A DNA stretch of 64,000 bases from Syncephalis fuscata (lineage: Eukaryota > Zoopagomycota > Zoopagomycetes > Zoopagales > Piptocephalidaceae): contig JAHLTZ010000006.1 of NCBI GenBank assembly GCA_025786725.1, forward strand, positions 186,001 through 250,000, in the 5' to 3' direction. The notes beneath the pieces are model-generated. The model saw only the letters and a program-made list of their open reading frames with translations. It was not told the DNA's origin and made no database searches. This document shows positions 1 through 57,408 of the stretch, one piece after another. The stretch's first letter is position 1; every line of letters begins with the position of its first letter. The position numbers and the translations under genes are program-made.

Positions 1-1320
1 TGATGACGTCCAGGCAGTATGGAATGGCGATTTGACCTGATAATATCGCCTTACACTGCAAATGACCTTTCTGAGCCTCTAGTAGCTCCCATTGGATGTG
101 CGTTCTTTCACGATCGCTGCCAATAGTTTCGGAATGGTGAGCTGCTGCAGCTGTAGAAGCAGCCTCATTTGCAGATCCGGACATTACTGTCCATGTTAAA
201 AACTGGCATTTGTCGGGAGAAGCGAATTGGATACAGGCGCGTGAAATGTTATCGATTACTGCTGGACCTTGTACCCATCGATTGCCATCCAAATCAAATA
301 GATCGAATCGATAATATTGTTCTTCGATATTGATGGTGCGGAAAAGGACCCATTCGTTATAAATGTCAGCCAAGTCCAGTCGCTCTTCATGGCGCACTCC
401 TCCATTTTCGCGTTGAAGCTGAATAACTTTTGGAGATGAGCAGTCAGTAACAGACCATACTAAAATGACCTTTTGCGGCCAACTTTCTTGTTCCTTTGAA
501 GGTTCGGTTGTTGAAATAGTAGGTGTGTGTTTATATAAAGCAACTGGATTTTCTAGCTTATTTTTTAATATGTGTTGTGCTTCTATATCATCAATACTCA
601 CTATATAACAGTATTAATAAATATTTAGTATTATCGTTAAAATTGCCATTACTACTTGCTTATTGGATCGCATGCGTAAATGGAAGCTAAATCTTCATAT
701 GTGTCTATGAAAACACCAGCCAACACAAACTGATGTGTTCCATAGACAGTCTTGATTCGAGGTTGACCGGTAAATAATGATGCGGGCAAAGGAATGGTCA
801 GCTCGTTGCAGGCCAGTTCTTCGTTGCTGTGTTCATCATCATCGCCAAAACAGCCATGCTGAATAGACCATAGCTTCGATGCTTCTTTGTCTTGTGCCAG
901 CACATGCCAAGGATTTAAATCAACCAATTTCAGTTGATCACATTTATCGACCGGTAGTTGGCAGTTTCTTCTTTCGAATTGGCCTGCCATTAGGTTGCGA
1001 TCAACCTGTTGGCGTCGCTGGTAGGCTTGAAACCATGACGCAGGCTCAAGACTAGAGGTAGACGATGAAGGAGTAGAGTTTGGTATGGCATTTATATTCC
1101 AATTGTACCATTTGATCCACTCTTGTTCCCTTGGATCGCCTAATGAAAACGTCCGTCTGTACTGTCGCTTCCAATAGTCGGGACGATTGGCCATCGTCCG
1201 ATACAGAAGACGACAAGTACTTGTAAGGAGGACTACCTCTTTATCATCCATAAAACGCCGCATATAGAGCACGACGTCATGGTGTTCAAAAAAACGGTAG
1301 CTATTTGTATTCGATGGCAT
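1..1320 (-). CDS. F-box protein, left copy (3' end beyond window)
   Basis: Exon 1 is 656-1320 (ATG at 1320) and exon 2 is 1-552, continuing off the edge. A phase-2 intron at 553-655 has a TACTAA-like branch point. Residues about 10-60 form an F-box: acidic lead-in, hydrophobic helix, a conserved Leu-X-Ser-Thr-Cys stretch, then a Trp-Lys-Arg end. In this family the domain binds Skp1 and recruits substrates to SCF ubiquitin ligases. The rest shows no motif I can name, so the substrate is unknown. The longer open frame to 1401 begins at GTG; the first ATG is used here. Exon 2 has a GG pair at 493-494 (minus strand) that keeps the frame open; the right-hand copy has lost one G there. This copy is therefore the intact reference. 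Confidence 0.8.
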
Positions 1321-1430
1321 ATTCAATGGCAATAGCTTCAATATGAATCTGCTATGCAACAATGAAAATACGCAGCAGCCGCGAATAAAAAGGAAGGTCA
1401 CATACGACTGCTGGCTAGTTTGCTCTTTTC

Positions 1431-14050: not shown

Positions 14051-17000
14051 ATCATTTTATTATATTAGATGCACTCTATTTGTTGTATACTTGACACGCT
14101 TTATTCGCTTCACTCGTTGATCTATATACATTATAGATTTATTATCACTGTTTGTATCTTTTTTAATGTATACTGTTTTATTGCATATCAACCATGCGCT
14201 ATTCATAACTGTTGTTTGTTTGCCGCCAGCTTTATTTGTTACAGAACTCAGTTTATTTTGTTCATGACGCATAAGTGTATACACAATAACTACATTACTG
14301 CTCATGTTCTTCTCACTGCCCATTACTGCTAATGTATCATAATGACATAGAATGGTTTATTACCATAATATAGATAACAAACAACATGATGTGTGTGTGC
14401 ATTACAGGTAGTGTATACCGTATATCGTAGAATAGCCATAAAGTGTTTTATAGTTAATTAAACACTAAAAACAATTGTAGACACAATGGTAATAAAACAG
14501 TCGACACCATTGTCTGTTTTATCACTATTCTAATTACATCATATAAACTTGGCAAATATAAAGTATTTTAACGGCACTTGGATGAATTGTATTAGTATAC
14601 ATGTATCTTCCATTAAGATTTGTTATAACTACCAATTGAAACTTGATTTCAATTAGTTGGTTTGTATACTGTAGAATAACCAGTGCTGATTTAAAATAAA
14701 ACTGTAGTTGGCATTACTAAACGAATAGAGCTGCCTAGTATGTTATGTATGTCATTTTAACCTATGACATACTTCACGCTTAATCGGTTGAATCCTGTAA
14801 CACAAATGCTATTCGTCAGTTTATCACATTGTAAAGATACTGCTAATAATGATGTCTATTCAATATGAGCAATAGCAATAATGATTATTTGTATCACGGA
14901 TGTAAAGAATGGTGTTTAAATAAAAGCACGGCTGTTGAATATTACACAGTAGTTATTTATACGGAAGAATAACTGCATAGTACATTGGTCTTGGACGGTT
15001 TCAGGTGAGTCATGTTTTATTGCAAAATTCGTAATCGTCACAATATAAGCCGGCCTTGCTGCTTTTGAACCAAGCATTATGTTTTTATCTCCTCTTGCTA
15101 TTCTTTGTCGCTCGATATGACCTACGCCCCTTTCTCTTACCGCTGTTTGTTGCTCGATATGCTTATCATTTTTTAAATGTCCGATAATTACAAGACCGCA
15201 GCAACTTACTGTTTTATATGCTTAAGTTTAGTAAATGAGCGTGTGAGGAGCAATGCGGTTGTGTTCTTTGGCTATGTGAGCACCATTAGATATATAGTAA
15301 ACTAGACACTATATGGTTTGGCAGCATGCATTCCAACATGCTGTATACGGTGTTAGACTGCACATAGCCAATAGGCCTTCTGTTCAGTGATATGGCGTTT
15401 GCTGTGTGTTTGTTTGTGGTAATTGCATTGCTAAGTATTTGGTGTATGGGCAGTAAAGATCTTTAGATATCGCCTATAACTAAATTGACTTGGATGTGGT
15501 GGTAGGATTAGTTGCTGTTTATATAACAGCCACTAGCTTGACCCTGTACGAACGTACATAGTGTTGCATACGGATAACGTATGCGATAGAGCCAGTGCGG
15601 TTGTGCGGGATGAGAGTAGTGGTTTGTGCGACTGGTTGAATAGTTTATCAACGTATAGGGCTGAGCTTCTGCTTGTGACGGTACAGTGACATTGCGGTTG
15701 ATGCTATGCCCAACAGTTATTTCGGATGCTTAGCAATGTGATTATGCGGCAAGCATAATTGCTATAGTTTATTTACATGTATCGTTTGCTAATGTCACTT
15801 TTAATAGATATAGATTCCAGGCATGGTTATATTCAGCAAGCATAGAATTGCAATACATCGTTTAGTCACTATTCTGCACCATTATCATTATACATGTGTA
15901 TTTTTATGAATAAATAAAGTTATTTTGCAAATATTACTGTTACAATCAGCTATATTTGATACAACTTCAGCACACTGCTTATCTTAATAGCAATAGTTTA
16001 TTTAGTTAATTGTATTATTTATTATGTTATTAGACAGCTTGTCAACAATTTAGTGTAATTCGGTAGTATTCTTACAGTTGCGATAACACTTAGTCTGTTA
16101 AAAGTGTAAAATGAATTATTCACCAAATGTGTATTAACATTTTTTGCAAAAAGTGGGCAAATGTGCAAAATGGCTAGTACCTGAAAATAAACTCGGGCAT
16201 GGTAGCACAATGGAAAAAGATTATACGTTAAAGTTTGCAAATGCACCTTAAAATAATTGAACAACATGCAAGGGCTGTGCAGCTCATGTAACAGCTTGAT
16301 AATTAAATGCAACGAATGACAAAGAAGTAAATAAGCATGCAGGAAATAAAGTGGTGTAATACTACTGATTAGCATATAATTTACGCAATGTTGCGCGTAT
16401 CGCTTGCTATGTTAACCAGATACTCAATATCAATTTAGTGAGTCATCCATCCGGAACAGCAATTGTGTAAAGAAAGTAAGACCAGTTTCACCTATACAAA
16501 ATCGTCATTATGGCAGCAGCATGTTATGTGTATTGCTGTCGCGGCGACTTTTAACGCCATTAATATTACAGCGCCGATTAATTGATTAGTTCACAACAAT
16601 CGGACCTTTAATAAATAAAATAAAGTATGTTTAGTCTTGCTGGCAACTTAACGCGTTTTTATGCAGTTTTAGTGTATATTATTCATAAATAAAGCAATAG
16701 CAATACTCGCTGTATTCCGATAGACATCTGTAACTGTGTAACTAGTGCATTGTGAAAAGAGCAAACTAGCCAGCAGTCGTATGTGACCTTCCTTTTTATT
16801 CGCGGCTGCTGCGTATTTTCATTGTTGCATAGCAGATTCATATTGAAGCTATTGCCATTGAATATGCCATCGAATACAAATAGCTACCGTTTTTTTGAAC
16901 ACCATGACGTCGTGCTCTACATGCGGCGTTTTATGGATGATAAAGAGGTAGTCCTCCTGGCAAGTACTTGTCGTCTTCTGTATCGGACGATGGCCAATCG

Positions 17001-18181
17001 TCCCGACTATTGGAAGCGACAGTACAGACGGACGTTTTCATTAGGCGATCCAAAGGAACAAGAGTGGATCAAATGGTACAATTGGAATATGAATGCCATA
17101 CCAAACTCTACTCCTTCATCGTCTACTTCTAGTCTTGAGCCTGCGTCATGGTTTCAAGCCTACCAGCGACGCCAACAGGTTGATTGCAACCTAATGGCAG
17201 GCCAATTCGAAAGAAGAAACTGCCAACTACCGGTCGATAAATGTGATCAACTGAAATTGGTTGATTTAAATCCTTGGCATGTGCTGGCACAAGACAAAGA
17301 AGCATCGAAGCTATGGTCTATTCAGCATGGCTGTTTTGGCGATGATGATGAACACAGCAACGAAGAACTGGCCTGCAACGAGCTGACCATTCCTTTGCCC
17401 GCATCATTATTTACCGGTCAACCTCGAATCAAGACTGTCTATGGAACACATCAGTTTGTGTTGGCTGGTGTTTTCATAGACACATATGAAGATTTAGCTT
17501 CCATTTACGCATGCGATCCAATAAGCAAGTAGTAATGGCAATTTTAACGATAATACTAAATATTTATTAATACTGTTATATAGTGAGTATTGATGATATA
17601 GAAGCACAACACATATTAAAAAATAGCTAGAAAATCCAGTTGCTTTATATGAACACACACCTACTATTTCAACAACCGAACCTTCAAAGAACAAGAAAGT
17701 TGGCCGCAAAAGGTCATTTTAGTATGGTCTGTTACTGACTGCTCATCTCCAAAAGTTATTCAGCTTCAACGCGAAAATGGAGGAGTGCGCCATGAAGAGC
17801 GACTGGACTTGGCTGACATTTATAACGAATGGGTCCTTTTCCGCACCATCAATATCGAAGAACAATATTATCGATTCGATCTATTTGATTTGGATGGCAA
17901 TCGATGGGTACAAGGTCCAGCAGTAATCGATAACATTTCACGCGCCTGTATCCAATTCGCTTCTCCCGACAAATGCCAGTTTTTAACATGGACAGTAATG
18001 TCCGGATCTGCAAATGAGGCTGCTTCTACGGCAGCAGCAGCTCACCATTCCGAAACTATTGGCAGCGATCGTGAAAGAACGCACATCCAATGGGAGCTAC
18101 TAGAGGCTCAGAAAGGTCATTTGCAGTGTAAGGCGATATTATCAGGTCAAATCGCCATTCCATACTGCCTGGACGTCATCA
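13883..18181. repeat. Right arm of large inverted duplication
   Basis: Mirror image of 1-4309. The match is seen through the whole non-coding stretch 13883-16860 and the F-box gene; it may continue past 18181 against sequence left of the window. Differences include four amino-acid changes in F-box exon 1, a 1-nt loss in the intron and a 1-nt loss in exon 2. The non-coding 14051-16780 part contains no credible gene. Confidence 0.95.
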
Positions 18182-29856: not shown

Positions 29857-31692
29857 TTATTCTATGTTTATAAATATATACACAAGTGATATGAATTAAT
29901 GTATAAACCAACAATGTATAACATCACTTACTCTCTATTAATGTCAAGTTATCGAACACAAAACATCACATAAAATTAATTCATAATCGACCAATATACT
30001 GTAGTACTTACTAACTATTAATATTAAATTATTAATGCATAAAATATATAATATACAATTAGCGCATAAATAATTATTATAAATTAGCACCTACCGCCTA
30101 TTAGTATTAGCATCAACATACACAATGAGCGTATAATTAGTAAACAGTTAATTAGCATACAATATCGCTTACATTCTATTAGCATTAAATTATTGATATA
30201 AAATATGTAGTGTATAAGCAATACATAGTTAATTAATATGCGCTAGTACTTACTGCCTATTAATATTAAATTATTGATATGCAATGAATATGCAATTAGT
30301 AAATAGTAATTATCATATAATAGCACTTACAATCTAATAGTGTTAAATTATTGATATGAAAATAAATTGCAATTAGTATATAGATGGCCAATATATAATA
30401 CGACTTACTCTCTGTTGATGTCAAGTTATCGAACATAGCACATAGCATGTAATTAGTGTATAATCCATTGACATATAATGTCACTTACCAACTATAATAT
30501 TAAAATATTGATACACGTTGCATAACATGCAGTTAGTACATATTCAATTGATATATAATGCCACTTACGATCTAATTCTATAAGTTATTTAATAAATACA
30601 ACGCATAAAATATAGTCAACACATATCCAATTGCTATAAGATATTACTTACTATCTATTGATATTAATTTGTTTATGCGCATTACATATATAACAAAATT
30701 AGCGTGTAGCTGCTTGATATACAATACTACTTACAGCCTATTATATTAATTTGTTGACACATACAGCACATAGCATGTAATTAGTGCATAGCCAACCAGT
30801 ATACAATACCACTTACCATCTGTTAATATTGAAGAATTAATTTAAGTGTCACATAAAATATTATTAGTGTGTAGTCGACTAATATACAATATTACTTACC
30901 ACCTAGTGTATTAAATTGTTCATTCACATAATGCGTAGCATGTAGTTAATATATAAACGATTAATACACAATGTTACTTACGACCTATTATATTAAGTTG
31001 TCGATGCACACAGCAATATTATGCAATTAGTGCAAACTCGATTAAGATACAATATTACTTACAAACTATTGATATCAAGTTGTCAATACAGATGGTACAT
31101 AGTAAGTAATTGATTTACAATTAATTAATGCAAAATATCACTTACCAACTATTAGTATCAAGTGGTTGATGTAGATTATACGTATAATGCAATTAGTACA
31201 TAAATAATTAATATTTAGCAAAACTTACGATCTATTGTATTAAGTTGTTGATACACATAGTACAGTACATTTAATTAGTATACAGCTAATCAATATACAA
31301 TGCCACTTACTGCCTATTAATGTTAAGTTATTGACATGCACAATAAACGGTATATAATTAATGCATATCCAGTCATTATATGGTGTACTTACAAGCTATT
31401 AATTTAAGGTGTTAAATGAAACATATATTTAGTTAAATTGTCAGTTGACATATAATATAGCTTACCTCTGGCTAATTTTAGTTTGGCAAATATAAACAAT
31501 ATTTAGTTAAATATTTAGTCAACGTGCAACACCACTTACATCCTATCAATGTTGTTATTACATATTAGCATTGCATATTTATTATAATTGTAACCTACTG
31601 CGATCAACCAAAACTGACTTAGCATCCACTGTGGATGTACTGGCCACAAAAGCCACGACGAGGGTGCAGATAACGGCAATAGAAAGCTTCAT
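29857..31692 (-). CDS. Secreted Cys-rich peptide from 21 micro-exons
   Basis: Exon 1 (31692-31599) encodes a signal peptide, MKLSIAVICTLVVAFVAS, and ends in phase 1 at a GTAGGT donor. Then come 21 micro-exons, highest coordinate first: 31540-31542, 31466-31471 (6 nt), 31393-31395, 31311-31313, 31229-31231, 31146-31148, 31063-31065, 30982-30984, 30900-30902, 30817-30819, 30735-30737, 30652-30654, 30569-30571, 30489-30491, 30409-30411, 30331-30333, 30254-30256, 30173-30175, 30095-30097, 30012-30014, 29932-29934. The terminal exon starts at 29861, with stop at 29859-29857. Every micro-exon sits between a YAG acceptor and a GTAAG or GTAGG donor. Joining in phase 1 gives 54 codons plus stop with no internal stop, and four cysteines spaced C-X3-C-X8-C-X-C, reminiscent of part of the CS-alpha-beta scaffold. 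Function is unknown; a secreted effector or antimicrobial peptide is inference. A TATA-like box lies 139 bp upstream. Confidence 0.85.
29862..31598 (-). repeat. Tandem array of ~81-bp intron/micro-exon units
   Basis: Reading the plus strand, the word CTTAC (or CCTAC) then three variable bases then CTATT/CTAAT/CTGTT recurs 20 times at a spacing of 77-83 bp over most of the array; the 6-nt exon has the same flanks. Between them the introns share words such as TATTAAATTATTGATA, GCATGTAATTAGT and ATACAATATCACTTAC. The introns are therefore related to one another, consistent with tandem amplification of an intron unit followed by drift. Confidence 0.85.
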
Positions 31693-31838: not shown

Positions 31839-32598
31839 TACATTGCTATTTTGGAGAACCAAACAATGTGTTCTATCAATTACAACACTGATACGCGATG
31901 TAAATCAATGAAACACATCCATGTGATAGCTTAAACCATCCATATACCGATGTAGCAACGCCATAGTAATATGTAATTAGGCCTTAACCCAATATGCTCG
32001 GATTGGGCCAGATGAAACAGCAATTTCAGCGATTCCGTACATATGTGGTAGAGTTGCAATAGAATTCTATTGCCTTGTTTAGAATTTGGACATGCGTCGC
32101 AAATGAAACATATTGGTTCCATTGGAGCATTGCAATGCATCACTATGCCTTTTACCGCCGCTTTTATCAACAACAACTCAATCTCAAATATTTTTACCCT
32201 TTCAAACCGAGTATAGCGCTAAACTTGTATTATTTACAGGTATATACTTTTATGCACAAGCTAGCTACACTTTTAAATTATAGATATATCGATTGGTTTA
32301 CAAATTCATTTAATGTGACATTGTAATTAAGCTACAAGAATAAACGAGTTATATTTAGCCTCGTGTAAATAAATGCTGATACAAACTTTATTGCTAATGA
32401 GTGATCTAACATGATGGCCTGAAAATGGTGTTTTGGCCTATTGGTTGGTTAACACGCCCTCCCCAGTTTTAGAAAGCGAGAGAGGGGGGAGGTTTCGTTT
32501 AGTTTGAATCTGTTTTATGGATGCGTAATGGATTATTCCGTAAGAAAAAAATCAATATTCCAAGATTTGAGGAGGTCACTACAGAAAATACTGTATGT
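31839..32598. other. Intergenic region
   Basis: About 0.76 kb with two short overlapping open frames on opposite strands near 31931-32326 that lack any domain. Nothing else is recognised. Confidence 0.4.
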
Positions 32599-32770
32599 GG
32601 TGAGGTCTGCTTTGCGCGTGGTAAGGTCTGCTTTGCGCGTGGTAAGGTCTGCTTTGTGTGTGGTAAGGTCTGCTTTGTGTGTGGTAAGGTCTGCTTTGCG
32701 CGTGGTAAGGTCTGCTTTGTGTGTGGTAAGGTCTGCTTTGTGTGTGGTAAGGTCTGCTTTGCGTGTGGAT
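32599..32770. repeat. 21-bp minisatellite, eight units
   Basis: The unit GGTCTGCTTTGYGYGTGGTAA recurs eight times, with starts at 32604, 32625, 32646, 32667, 32688, 32709, 32730 and 32751. Variation is confined mainly to C/T at two sites. Because 21 is divisible by three, several frames stay open through it, giving 7-residue repeats on both strands. Each unit carries GTAAG, a consensus splice donor. I do not regard the open frames as genes. Confidence 0.9.
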
Positions 32771-42262: not shown

Positions 42263-43564
<1,302 letters not shown>

Positions 43565-51764: not shown

Positions 51765-53107
51765 TTACTCTTCATCGTAGATTTCCTCCTCTTCGTAGTC
51801 GCCTTCTTCCTCGTCATCGACAGTGGCTTCCTGGTACTGCTGGTATTCAGAGACCAAATCGTTCATGTTGGATTCGGCTTCAGTGAATTCCATTTCGTCC
51901 ATACCTTCGCTGGTGTACCAATGAAGGAAAGCCTTACGACGGAACATAGCGGCGAATTGGTCGTTGACACGCTTGAACATCTCTTGGATAGCGGTAGAGT
52001 TACCAATAAAGGTCGATGACATCTTCAATCCCTTTGGTGGAATGTCACATACGGCAGTCTTGACGTTGTTGGGGATCCATTCAACGAAGTGTGAGCTATT
52101 TTTGTTCTGGATGTTAAGCATTTGCTCGTCGACTTCCTTCATAGAGATGCGACCACGGAAAATGGTGGCAACAGCAAGGTAGCGGCCGTGACGTGGATCA
52201 GAGGCAGCCATCATGTTGCTGGCGTCAAACATCTGCTGGGTCAAGTCGGGGACAGTTAGAGAGCGATATTGCTGCGAGCCACGTGAAGTCAATGGAGCAA
52301 AGCCGACCATGAAGAAGTGAAGACGTGGGAAAGGCACCAAGTTGACGGCTGTCTTGCGCAAGTCAGAGTTGAGCTGACCAGGGAAACGCAAGCAAGTAGT
52401 AATACCCGACATGACCATGGAGACAAGATGGTTCAAATCGCCATAACCTGGGCTGGTAAGCTTCAATGTCTTGAAGCAAATGTCATACAAGGCTTCGTTG
52501 TCGATACAGAAGGTCATATCAGAGTTTTCAACCAACTGATGGACGGACAAAGTGGCGTTGTATGGTTCAACCACAGTATCGGATACCTTTGGCGACGGGA
52601 GGACGGAGAAGGTGCACATCATACGATCTGGATATTCTTCACGAATCTTGGAAATAAGCAAAGTACCCATACCGGAACCGGTACCGCCACCAAGCGAGTG
52701 CGTAAACTGGAAGCCTTGCAAGCTGTCACAGCCTTCAGTTTCTTTACGACAACGTCAAGAACGCTATCAACTAACTCGGCACCTTCAGTGTAATGGCCCT
52801 TGGCCCAGTTGTTACCGGCGCCGGACTGGGCGTGAATAAAGTTGTCTGGACGGAACAGGCTGCCGAATGGACCTGAACGGATAGTATCCATGGTTCCGGG
52901 TTCTAGATCGACCAATACAGCGCGTGGCACATATCGGCCACCACCGGCTTCATTGTAGTAAACATTAATGCGTTCGAGTTGTTGGGCATTCTCGCCGTAG
53001 TAAGCGCCCTTCTCGTCGATCTTGTGTTCATCGGAGAGAACTTCCCAGAATTTGGCACCAATCTGGTTACCACATTGACCGGCTTGGAGATGAACAATTT
53101 CACGCAT
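51765..53107 (-). CDS. Beta-tubulin with Cys165 and Met198; one-base frame break
   Basis: Intronless, about 446 residues. It begins MREIVHL (autoregulatory tetrapeptide MREI), has [10 protein letters not shown] and [10 protein letters not shown] (GTP binding), and ends in an acidic tail ([16 protein letters not shown]). Alpha/beta-tubulin dimers build microtubules. A single C is missing at about 52748, where the frame shifts between residues 120 and 121; both sides are otherwise perfect, so this is almost surely a sequence error. Counting with that base restored, residue 165 is Cys and residue 198 is Met. Most fungi have Ala165 and Glu198. Both lie in the benzimidazole site, where changes give resistance in other fungi. 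Confidence 0.97.
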
Positions 53108-55925: not shown

Positions 55926-57408
55926 TATTAAAATTGTTGCAATAACTTTGCGTGTAACGAAGCAAATTGCATGATATTTTGCACAAGTATACCTATGACA
56001 TATAGGTAGCTATTGCCAAAGTGTACCGTATTTGTATAAAGGAATGGTGTAATAGTTATACTAACATGCTAATAAATGTACAAAAATAGCAGTTTTTTAC
56101 GGATTATAAATCGTATGACTAAAAGATAGCAAAATGATTGCTAGATTCGAGTTCTCCGTGCTTAGTTATACAGATTGGTATGATTTATAGAACAACGATT
56201 TTTTAAAAATAATTAGTCAAAAATGCAATTTACGTATTTTTAATTTACTTAATAAATCATTGATATTACTAAGTATAACTTAACACATAATAAAGTAAAT
56301 TGCATGATATTTTGCACAAGTATACCTATGACATATAGGTAGCTATTGCCAAAGTGTACCGTATTTGTACAAAGGAGTGGTGTAATAGTTATACTAACAT
56401 GCTAATAAATGTACAAAAATAGCAGTTTTTTACGGATTATAAATCGTATGACTAAAAGATAGCAAAATGATTGCCAGATTCGAGTTCTCCGTGCTTAGTT
56501 ATACAGATTGGTATGATTTATAGAACAACGATTTTTTAAAAATAATTAGTCAAAAATGCAATTTACGTATTTTTAATTTACTTAATAAATCATTGATATT
56601 ACTAAGTATAACTTAACACATAATAAAGTAAATTGCATGATATTTTGCACAAGTATACCTATGACATATAGGTAGCTATTGCCAAAGTGTACCGTATTTG
56701 TACAAAGGAATGATGTAATAGTTGTACTAACATGCTAATAAATGTACAAAAATAGCAGTTTTTTACGGATTATAAATCGTATGACTAAAAGATAGCAAAA
56801 TGATTGCCAGATTCGAGTTCTCCGTGCTTAGTTATACAGATTGGTATGATTTATAGGGCAACGATTTTGCAAAAAATGTTAGTTAAAAATGTAATTCACG
56901 TATAAATTTGTTAACGAAAATGATTAACCATAATTTTACAATCTAATATTAAAAATTAAATTTGGATCAATTAAATTCAAAGCGCTTTACAATAATATAA
57001 CAATTATAATAGCAAGTTATTATGCAGAAATACCGATGTACAGTGGCAATTTATCTCATATGCATAACATATAACATAAAGTTTTATGAATTAATAACAC
57101 ATAAATCGCATTTTTGACTAATTATTTTTAAAAAATCGTTGTTCTATAAATCATACCAATCTGTATAACTAAGCACGGAGAACTCGAATCTGGCAATCAT
57201 TTTGCTATCTTTTAGTCATACGATTTATAATCCGTAAAAAACTGCTATTTTTGTACATTTATTAGCATGTTAGTATAACTATTACACCACTCCTTTGTAC
57301 AAATACGGTACACTTTGGCAATAGCTACCTATATGTCATAGGTATACTTGTGCAAAATATCATGCAATTTGCTTCGTTACACGCAAAGTTATTGCAACAA
57401 TTTTGATT
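55926..57408. repeat. Foldback element with internal 333-bp tandem repeats
   Basis: Three tandem units start at 55964, 56297 and 56630; the period is exactly 333 bp and the third is incomplete (to about 56870). Each contains GCACAAGTATACCTATGACA, AGCAGTTTTTTACGGATTAT and GATTCGAGTTCTCCGTGC. A single inverted copy runs 57111-57408, including the outer flank word TTGCGTGTAACGAAGC shared with 55948-55963. Units are about 98% alike, so amplification was recent. It is non-coding. Confidence 0.9.

Follow-up and report, generated by a model that had tools for sequence, protein, structure and literature searches.

Can a gene be built almost entirely from exons one codon long? The question is raised by a locus in the 64-kb window analyzed here (the whole stretch of 64,000 nucleotides of the fungus Syncephalis fuscata, contig JAHLTZ010000006.1, positions 186,001 to 250,000). 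On its minus strand, a signal-like exon is followed by 21 consecutive micro-exons, 20 of 3 nucleotides (nt) and one of 6 nt, and by a terminal exon containing a stop. We conclude, with a probability of about 0.88, that this locus is a functional spliceosomal micro-exon gene of S. fuscata and that it belongs to a large family encoding predicted secreted peptides.

Direct reading and a script parse both found a YAG acceptor before, and a GTAAG or GTAGG donor after, each of the 21 micro-exons, and the introns of the gene were 56 to 80 nt long (Table 1). The same run of exons, with its signal-peptide exon at the 5' end and its stop-containing terminal exon, had been described in a sequence-only reading of this DNA and was recovered here unchanged. 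All the micro-exons are multiples of 3 nt, and each begins at codon position 2. The script parse also reproduced the single open frame of 54 codons claimed for the phase 1 joining (MKLSIAVICTLVVAFVASTSTVDAKSVLVDRRSRACNLVCRDGYNLENCKCVKK, followed by the stop), which has a signal-like start, is rich in cysteine with the pattern C-X3-C-X8-C-X-C, and ends in ...RRSRACNLVCRDGYNLENCKCVKK before the stop. Exon 1 ends in a dibasic RR that is completed by the bases after codon position 1. Exon 1 is predicted to encode a signal peptide and a pro-region with the dibasic site at its end; the mature cysteine-rich peptide would be assembled from the 21 micro-exons, and the terminal exon would complete a final Lys codon with two bases and add the stop. 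The two-exon pattern GTAAGT-N50..80-YAG-NNN-GTAAGT-N50..80-YAG-NNN-GTAAG matched the window 14 times, all within this array, and the mean in 100 dinucleotide shuffles of the window was 0.00.

In the 28.95-Mb genome the same pattern had at least 3,122 matches (at least 1,360 plus at least 1,762), and the backwards-read control had none. With two 4-nt exons the pattern matched once (control, 2), with a 5-nt exon ahead of a 3-nt exon twice (control, 0), and with a 6-nt exon ahead of a 3-nt exon 91 times (control, 1). Since 4-nt and 5-nt exons are nearly absent while 3-nt and 6-nt exons are frequent, exon length is held to multiples of three, and mostly to exactly three. In 15 longer models the arrays averaged 17.9 strict pairs each, which suggests, as a rough figure, about 174 arrays in the genome. 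The sequence-only reading had treated the locus as a single gene; the architecture it described stands, but the gene is one of an estimated 170 or so arrays, and their introns form one sequence family.

Relatives of the window exon 1 were sought in the genome, and 150 of the 291 candidates were scored. Among the best 30 loci (L031 to L060, L031 being the window gene), 25 have micro-exons, four (L037, L041, L058, and L060) lack introns, and L059 belongs to neither group. The 614 modelled internal exons comprised 571 of 3 nt, 41 of 6 nt, one of 12 nt, and one of 8 nt; C57, C13, C245, L057, and L050 were left out of these counts and of the splice-site counts, the intron profile, the 3' untranslated region (UTR) comparison, and the check on the unit number of paralogue C282 given below. 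The longest modelled array, on C135, had reached 42 one-codon exons at the end of the fetched stretch and thus has at least 42. Very similar pairs of array genes, inverted or direct, also lie tens of kb apart (C1 at about 476k(+) and 531k(-), and at 575k(-) and 610k(+); C2 at 226k and 245k). Viral contigs gave seven single matches to a shorter version of the pattern.

The coding constraint on the arrays was measured in gene models that dynamic programming derived from splice-site scores and from the lengths of exons and introns, with no use of stops or frame in the choice of internal exons. From 33 modelled genes, 26 had at least four micro-exons ahead of any long intron, and 19 remained after removal of near copies. 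In these 19 nonredundant arrays, phase 1 contained no stop in 495 codons, compared with 57 in 476 for phase 2 and 2 in 495 for phase 0. When the exon order was shuffled within genes 5,000 times, the mean number of stops was 20.3 and the minimum was 9. The phase 1 frame of the same arrays encoded 79 cysteines, and the shuffled mean was 35.6 (maximum, 52). Strict runs identified without any gene model (92 runs, 561 triplets) gave 1 stop in 469 codons in phase 1, 37 in 469 in phase 2, and 0 in 561 in phase 0, with a shuffled mean of 18.9 and a minimum of 9.

The intronless relatives provided a second comparison. A total of 44 loci were examined, namely L037, L041, L058, L060, and 40 others picked for long open frames, a nonrandom sample in which 28 loci could be read as one exon of 60 or more residues that carries the same signal peptide (26 of the 28 unique). 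Cysteine-rich mature parts were found in 24 of the 28 (for example, L060, RRGAQECEDCVHICASAKDRYGNRNSADWCRSERGNCAIPCR), the exceptions being L058, L094, L103, and L113. When 15 of the 19 array models (C245, C57, C13, and C1a left out) were compared with the 24 intronless mature peptides, the summed best scores were 354 bits in phase 1, 166 bits in phase 0, and 156 bits in phase 2, and at most 236 bits in 200 shuffles of exon order. Matches with E < 1e-3 were found for 9 of the 15 arrays in phase 1, for none in the other phases, and for at most two in any shuffle. The best pair was the C135 array peptide CGLACNNPSRGGDNGHQICTDCTYSECMEK and the intronless L041 peptide CDRACNRPSRGGWCGRKAECTYSECMEK (63% identity over 30 residues, E 1.6e-11), which have CTYSECMEK in common; the C239 array peptide AKDPAKCNQCMSQC was likewise compared with the intronless L108 peptide AKDQAKCNRCINEC. 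In the 12 intronless genes shown, the 3'UTR (TAATCGATGGTTTCAAGACATCAGCATTGG or a variant of it, in some cases rather different) matched the terminal exon of the arrays; the homology starts about 2 nt inside the predicted terminal-exon acceptor, an indirect sign that the introns are removed. In 7 of the 9 array genes shown, the script set the terminal exon at the conserved motif; for C246b and C267 it chose a later acceptor, although the motif was present upstream.

The splice sites of the arrays were highly uniform. Modelled donors were GTAAGT in 484 of 614 cases and acceptors TAG in 590 of 614, a uniformity that arises partly by construction because the gene models choose such sites; the median intron was 78 nt. 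The introns have a GT donor and an AG acceptor, and their length is comparable to that of introns in neighbouring genes, two of which, delimited by eye, are 52 and 57 nt long with GTAAGT and TAG ends. NAG triplets, each a would-be competing acceptor, accounted for 9 of 515 triplets in micro-exons, whereas intronless relatives had 46 of 854 in that frame (p = 6e-4). This scarcity is expected from selection for accurate splicing and unexpected for an unspliced repeat. Of seven triplet comparisons, that of NAG against all others alone survived correction for seven tests. GTR triplets (11 of 515 versus 39 of 854 intronless; p 0.025) differed nominally, and T-first and TRN triplets showed no difference between micro-exons and the intronless frame. 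The triplet comparison left out C57, C13, C245, L057, and L050, together with the near copies L034, L036, L043, L044, and L055 and the intronless L058, L094, L103, and L113. Taken together, these comparisons strongly support the prediction that the arrays are spliced. Neighbouring introns would probably be removed one after another by intron definition, with the growing exon 1 gaining a fresh donor at each step, because an acceptor and the next donor only 3 nt apart can hardly both be occupied. The earlier proposal of a hyper-intronised gene for a secreted peptide thus gains support from the open frames of paralogues, from the intronless paralogues, from the comparison between paralogues, and from the avoidance of competing acceptors.

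The 562 profiled array introns belong to a single homologous family, whose consensus is 80 nt long. A search with the family profile, confined to the 64-kb window, had no hit at E <= 10 outside the array. Intron pairs more than 85% identical made up 13.5% of pairs between neighbouring units and 2.2% of pairs between genes, and in 41 within-gene pairs of units, up to five apart, the introns were at least 93% identical (93 to 100%). Because near-identical introns recur several units apart within a gene, block duplication is indicated. The repeat unit, one codon plus one intron of about 78 nt, would be gained and lost by tandem duplication and by recombination between homologous introns, and since single units come and go, the peptides would change residue by residue. 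Against the 21 micro-exons of the window gene, the two nearest paralogues, C282 and C256b, each have 22. A gain of one unit in C282 was considered and dropped, as C256b has the same number; it is simpler to assume that the window gene lost one unit. Intron 8 of the window gene (counted from 0) is mostly like intron 8 of its relatives and, at several sites near its 3' end, like their intron 9, with a few sites out of order; this pattern might reflect recombination of one intron with its neighbour. Long array introns of C24, C225a, C289, L054, L056, and others contain a dispersed element several hundred bases in length (GAAGAGCTTGTGAGCCCCCGCTGCGCATAATTAAAG...).

In seven pairs of paralogues, identity was 94.7 to 100% in exon 1, donors, and acceptors, 79 to 98% in introns, and 54 to 95% in micro-exons, with columns counted only where both models agreed on the kind of site. 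The micro-exons were 1.9 to 3.9 times more divergent than the introns in all seven pairs (p < 0.05 in six), which are not independent, as three share genes; in the strongest pair, C246b and C267, the internal units are near-identical and the register is uncertain. Where both flanking introns were at least 85% identical, 53 of 411 bases in 3-nt exons differed (12 pairs, one without a usable unit), the differences falling at codon positions 2, 3, and 1 in 22, 13, and 18 of 137 cases, respectively. Selection on residues alone would not predict this pattern, because position 3 is raised too. Among the 41 pairs of units with near-identical introns, 25 carry different triplets; hypermutation of new units is not claimed from this, since, whenever a unit is duplicated, one boundary ends up next to a different neighbour. 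With these cautions, the divergence of the micro-exons is read as diversification of the predicted peptides.

Several observations weigh against the reading of these arrays as functional spliced genes. Exon lengths other than multiples of three are penalised in the gene models, whose thresholds were loosened over several rounds with the translations in view, so that the strict-run count is the sole frame test free of both. Stops appeared in 4 of the 19 longer models (C245, C57, C13, and C1a) and in 3 of 14 shorter models (L050, L054, and L056) once these were extended past long introns or the end of the array, and some copies may be broken or mis-modelled. The mature part of the window gene matched the intronless relatives weakly (best E 0.016), and because of this its support comes from the paralogous arrays. 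The faster change of micro-exons is not a formal test of nonsynonymous against synonymous substitution (dN/dS): the introns hold constrained splice signals, and the arrays turn over. An RNA structure that could aid splicing was looked for in the introns, and no conserved one was found. The secondary-structure z scores of five sequences (four window introns and one consensus-like sequence) ranged from 0.93 to -1.21, and RNAalifold found no structure in 70 diverse introns and likewise none in column shuffles, so this control is uninformative. Finally, two GenBank models of relatives, P0001 and P0014, skip the 3-nt exons and run from exon 1 into translated intron (RKLYC...). A gene caller blind to 3-nt exons would produce such models in any case. 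P0001, a GenBank protein of S. fuscata, was 97% and 100% identical to contig C239 over its two parts, and the missed micro-exons were noted at C239:37696-38102 (L071).

As to the role of the peptides, S. fuscata is described as a mycoparasitic zygomycete (PMC10386755). Judging from the layout of the precursor, the peptides are in all likelihood secreted and directed at the fungal host. A folded model of the intronless relative L108 (14 sequences) had a mean predicted local distance difference test (pLDDT) score of 71 with short helices, and a Foldseek search with it against the PDB gave no match at E <= 10. A profile searched against PDB sequences had one match at E 0.085, which was not used, and a Pfam scan of two peptides returned no family at E <= 1. 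A profile search of 5.8 billion proteins, of limited sensitivity, yielded 16 matches, all from S. fuscata. The peptides could instead be pheromones, self-recognition peptides, or antimicrobials, roles that the dibasic site and the hypervariable mature part would fit as well. However, the size of the family, the cysteine-rich content, and the divergence of the mature part would be more like families of effectors or toxins, as these are commonly known, and we consider such roles possible, though on the unlikely side.

It is also conceivable that the arrays are spliced mainly as a combinatorial device, with variable subsets of one-codon exons giving a library of single-residue peptide variants. 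Because the micro-exons of the window gene all have lengths divisible by three, any subset of them stays in frame and reaches the same stop, so that inclusion errors would keep both, and flatworm micro-exon genes are described as varying their proteins through exon skipping (PMC4350168, PMC7653826). However, the cysteine spacing and words such as CTYSECMEK match the intronless relatives under ordered full inclusion, the product that these relatives resemble, and the donors are uniformly strong, with GTAAGT at nearly four-fifths of the modelled sites. We therefore regard variable inclusion as the main purpose of the arrays as improbable.

Another proposal is that the intronless form is ancestral and that the arrays arose by insertion of introns between codons, as in an introner-like burst. 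That the array introns are one sequence family would agree with it, as would the long upstream flanks common to both forms. In several pieces, extending as far as 1.2 kb upstream of the start codon, the flanks of the array and intronless genes compared are about 77 to 86% identical. Because of these common flanks, the intronless genes do not resemble stray retroposed copies; either the introns disappeared where they stood (for example, through recombination with complementary DNA) or the arrays were gained in place. The identity of these flanks (L038 to L041 and L060, several pieces) also exceeds the needs of a short promoter. On the other hand, insertion after every codon in one phase would need exact targeting, the 41 within-gene pairs with 93 to 100% identical introns several units apart point to block duplication, and the family intron occurs nowhere else in the window. 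A tree of exon 1 and the 3'UTR (38 rows; C256b, C24, and C1b left out because the script missed their terminal motif) needs six changes of form, at least three of them forced by well supported branches, with an unconverged bootstrap; it does not settle the direction. An origin by insertion thus seems to us a poor candidate as well.

The proposal that the arrays are an untranslated, satellite-like tandem repeat of about 82 nt with splice-like motifs and an accidentally open frame would account for the homology and even spacing of the introns within a gene, but it is very improbable, and disfavoured for the family as a whole, given the stop-free phase 1 (against a shuffled mean of 20), the doubling of cysteine in that frame, the matching peptides of intronless relatives, and the locking of exon length at 3 or 6 nt.

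If the arrays are functional spliced genes, the roughly 170 arrays and their intronless relatives would constitute a large, fast-diverging peptide family. We tentatively suggest, at somewhat less than even odds, that they act as a codon-cassette system in which each residue resides in an exchangeable unit of codon and intron, so that residues could be added, deleted, or swapped in frame through recombination between the similar introns. Such a system would be an evolvable peptide generator because selection would hit the exposed codons more than the introns, and in-frame skipping could provide a second layer, making one gene a peptide library. With these arrays, the splitting of genes goes beyond rare, isolated 3-nt exons: such exons make up nearly the whole gene, 20 to more than 40 in a row. 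The arrays would offer a natural test bed for a spliceosome that meets, dozens of times per transcript, a donor only 3 nt behind an acceptor. They suggest that exon-intron structure can serve peptide evolution residue by residue, here in a fungus and apparently independently of flatworms and aphids, and they warn that such genes can escape standard annotation.

Table 1. Predicted features of the micro-exon gene (window coordinates)
Feature	Coordinates	Strand	Basis
Exon 1: start codon, signal-like peptide, pro-region; 94 nt, stops after codon position 1	31599..31692	-	sequence; 150 scored relatives
First intron, GTAGGT...TAG, 56 nt	31543..31598	-	direct reading, script parse
Micro-exon 1, GAT	31540..31542	-	script parse
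Micro-exon 2, CCAGAG (6 nt)	31466..31471	-	script parse
Micro-exon 3, CTT	31393..31395	-	script parse
Micro-exon 4, GCA	31311..31313	-	script parse
Micro-exon 5, ATC	31229..31231	-	script parse
Micro-exon 6, TTG	31146..31148	-	script parse
Micro-exon 7, TTT	31063..31065	-	script parse
Micro-exon 8, GTC; one extra unit here in the two nearest paralogues	30982..30984	-	script parse, paralogue comparison
Micro-exon 9, GTG	30900..30902	-	script parse
Micro-exon 10, ATG	30817..30819	-	script parse
Micro-exon 11, GCT	30735..30737	-	script parse
Micro-exon 12, ATA	30652..30654	-	script parse
Micro-exon 13, ATC	30569..30571	-	script parse
Micro-exon 14, TTG	30489..30491	-	script parse
Micro-exon 15, AGA	30409..30411	-	script parse
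Micro-exon 16, ATT	30331..30333	-	script parse
Micro-exon 17, GCA	30254..30256	-	script parse
Micro-exon 18, AAT	30173..30175	-	script parse
Micro-exon 19, GCG	30095..30097	-	script parse
Micro-exon 20, TTA	30012..30014	-	script parse
Micro-exon 21, AGA	29932..29934	-	script parse
Terminal exon, coding start: AA finishes the last Lys codon, TAA stop at 29859-29857, 3'UTR after	29857..29861	-	sequence, paralogue comparison
Homologous introns (68-80 nt) between micro-exons	29862..31539	-	sequence, intron profile

About 0.9 kb upstream of the array gene, the window contains a 21-bp tandem repeat (32596-32768; 8.2 copies, 94% matches), and a 333-bp tandem repeat (2.8 copies, 97% matches) lies at 55960-56903. 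Two near-identical open frames of 258 codons stand inverted about 16 kb apart, at 652-1428 (-) and 16756-17532 (+), as a local inverted duplication. A polyubiquitin open frame with five 76-codon repeats is found at 42263-43564 (-). In a beta-tubulin gene the frame shifts at 52600-52790 (-), by sequencing error or a real defect, within a stretch that we take to be conserved. One window protein is 60% identical to a protein of S. plumigaleata.

How, then, do these genes compare with known systems? By analogy, the gene is of the kind represented by the micro-exon genes (MEGs) of flatworms and the bicycle genes of aphids, carried to one codon per exon in what appears to be a fungal counterpart. 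The exons of MEGs are mostly 6 to 36 nt long, and those of bicycle genes are longer than single codons; a paired Cys-Tyr-Cys motif marks the bicycle proteins. Unlike in MEGs, nearly all internal exons in S. fuscata are one codon long (571 of 614 modelled), the introns are short and homologous to one another, the genes belong to a fungus, and intronless relatives occur alongside them. The MEGs of schistosomes and tapeworms are reported to encode secreted proteins, to have coding regions made mostly of small symmetrical exons, and to have a fast-changing mature part (PMC4350168, PMC7653826); the S. fuscata genes resemble them in their small symmetrical exons, predicted secretion, and fast-changing mature part. 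A published structural definition asks for seven or more exons, of which half or more are under 70 nt in length and divisible by three, and for a run of at least four such exons (PMC7653826). With 23 exons, 21 of them consecutive micro-exons, the window gene is a micro-exon gene in this structural sense. No sequence relationship that would indicate descent from flatworm MEGs was found in the profile search of limited sensitivity, whose matches were all from S. fuscata. Bicycle genes are described as fast-evolving putative gall effectors with about 17 exons on average, among them many small internal ones whose first base is codon position 2 (PMC9168663). The internal exons of the window gene likewise start at codon position 2, but the kingdom is different, and the same profile search, of limited sensitivity, gave matches in S. 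fuscata alone.

In literature on consecutive or single-codon exons, fungal micro-exons, and Syncephalis genomes, in which subscription papers and preprints were thinly covered, we found no such genes described. The 1-nt exon of Arabidopsis APC11, for which splicing is reported and sequential removal by intron definition is proposed (PMC4674806), and the isolated 3-nt exon of Drosophila homothorax (PMC7392893) indicate that exons of 1 to 3 nt can be spliced, but these stand singly between normal exons, whereas in S. fuscata they form uninterrupted runs of 20 to more than 40. In architecture, the S. fuscata precursors may be likened to those of conotoxins. Conotoxin precursors have a conserved signal and pro-region, a dibasic cleavage site, and a hypervariable cysteine-rich mature part; we know of no conotoxin with one exon per codon. 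Introner elements, for their part, place numerous introns of a single homologous family in many unrelated genes of a genome. The array introns of S. fuscata are likewise one homologous family, but within the window they are seen only in one gene family, where they have apparently spread by duplication of the unit.

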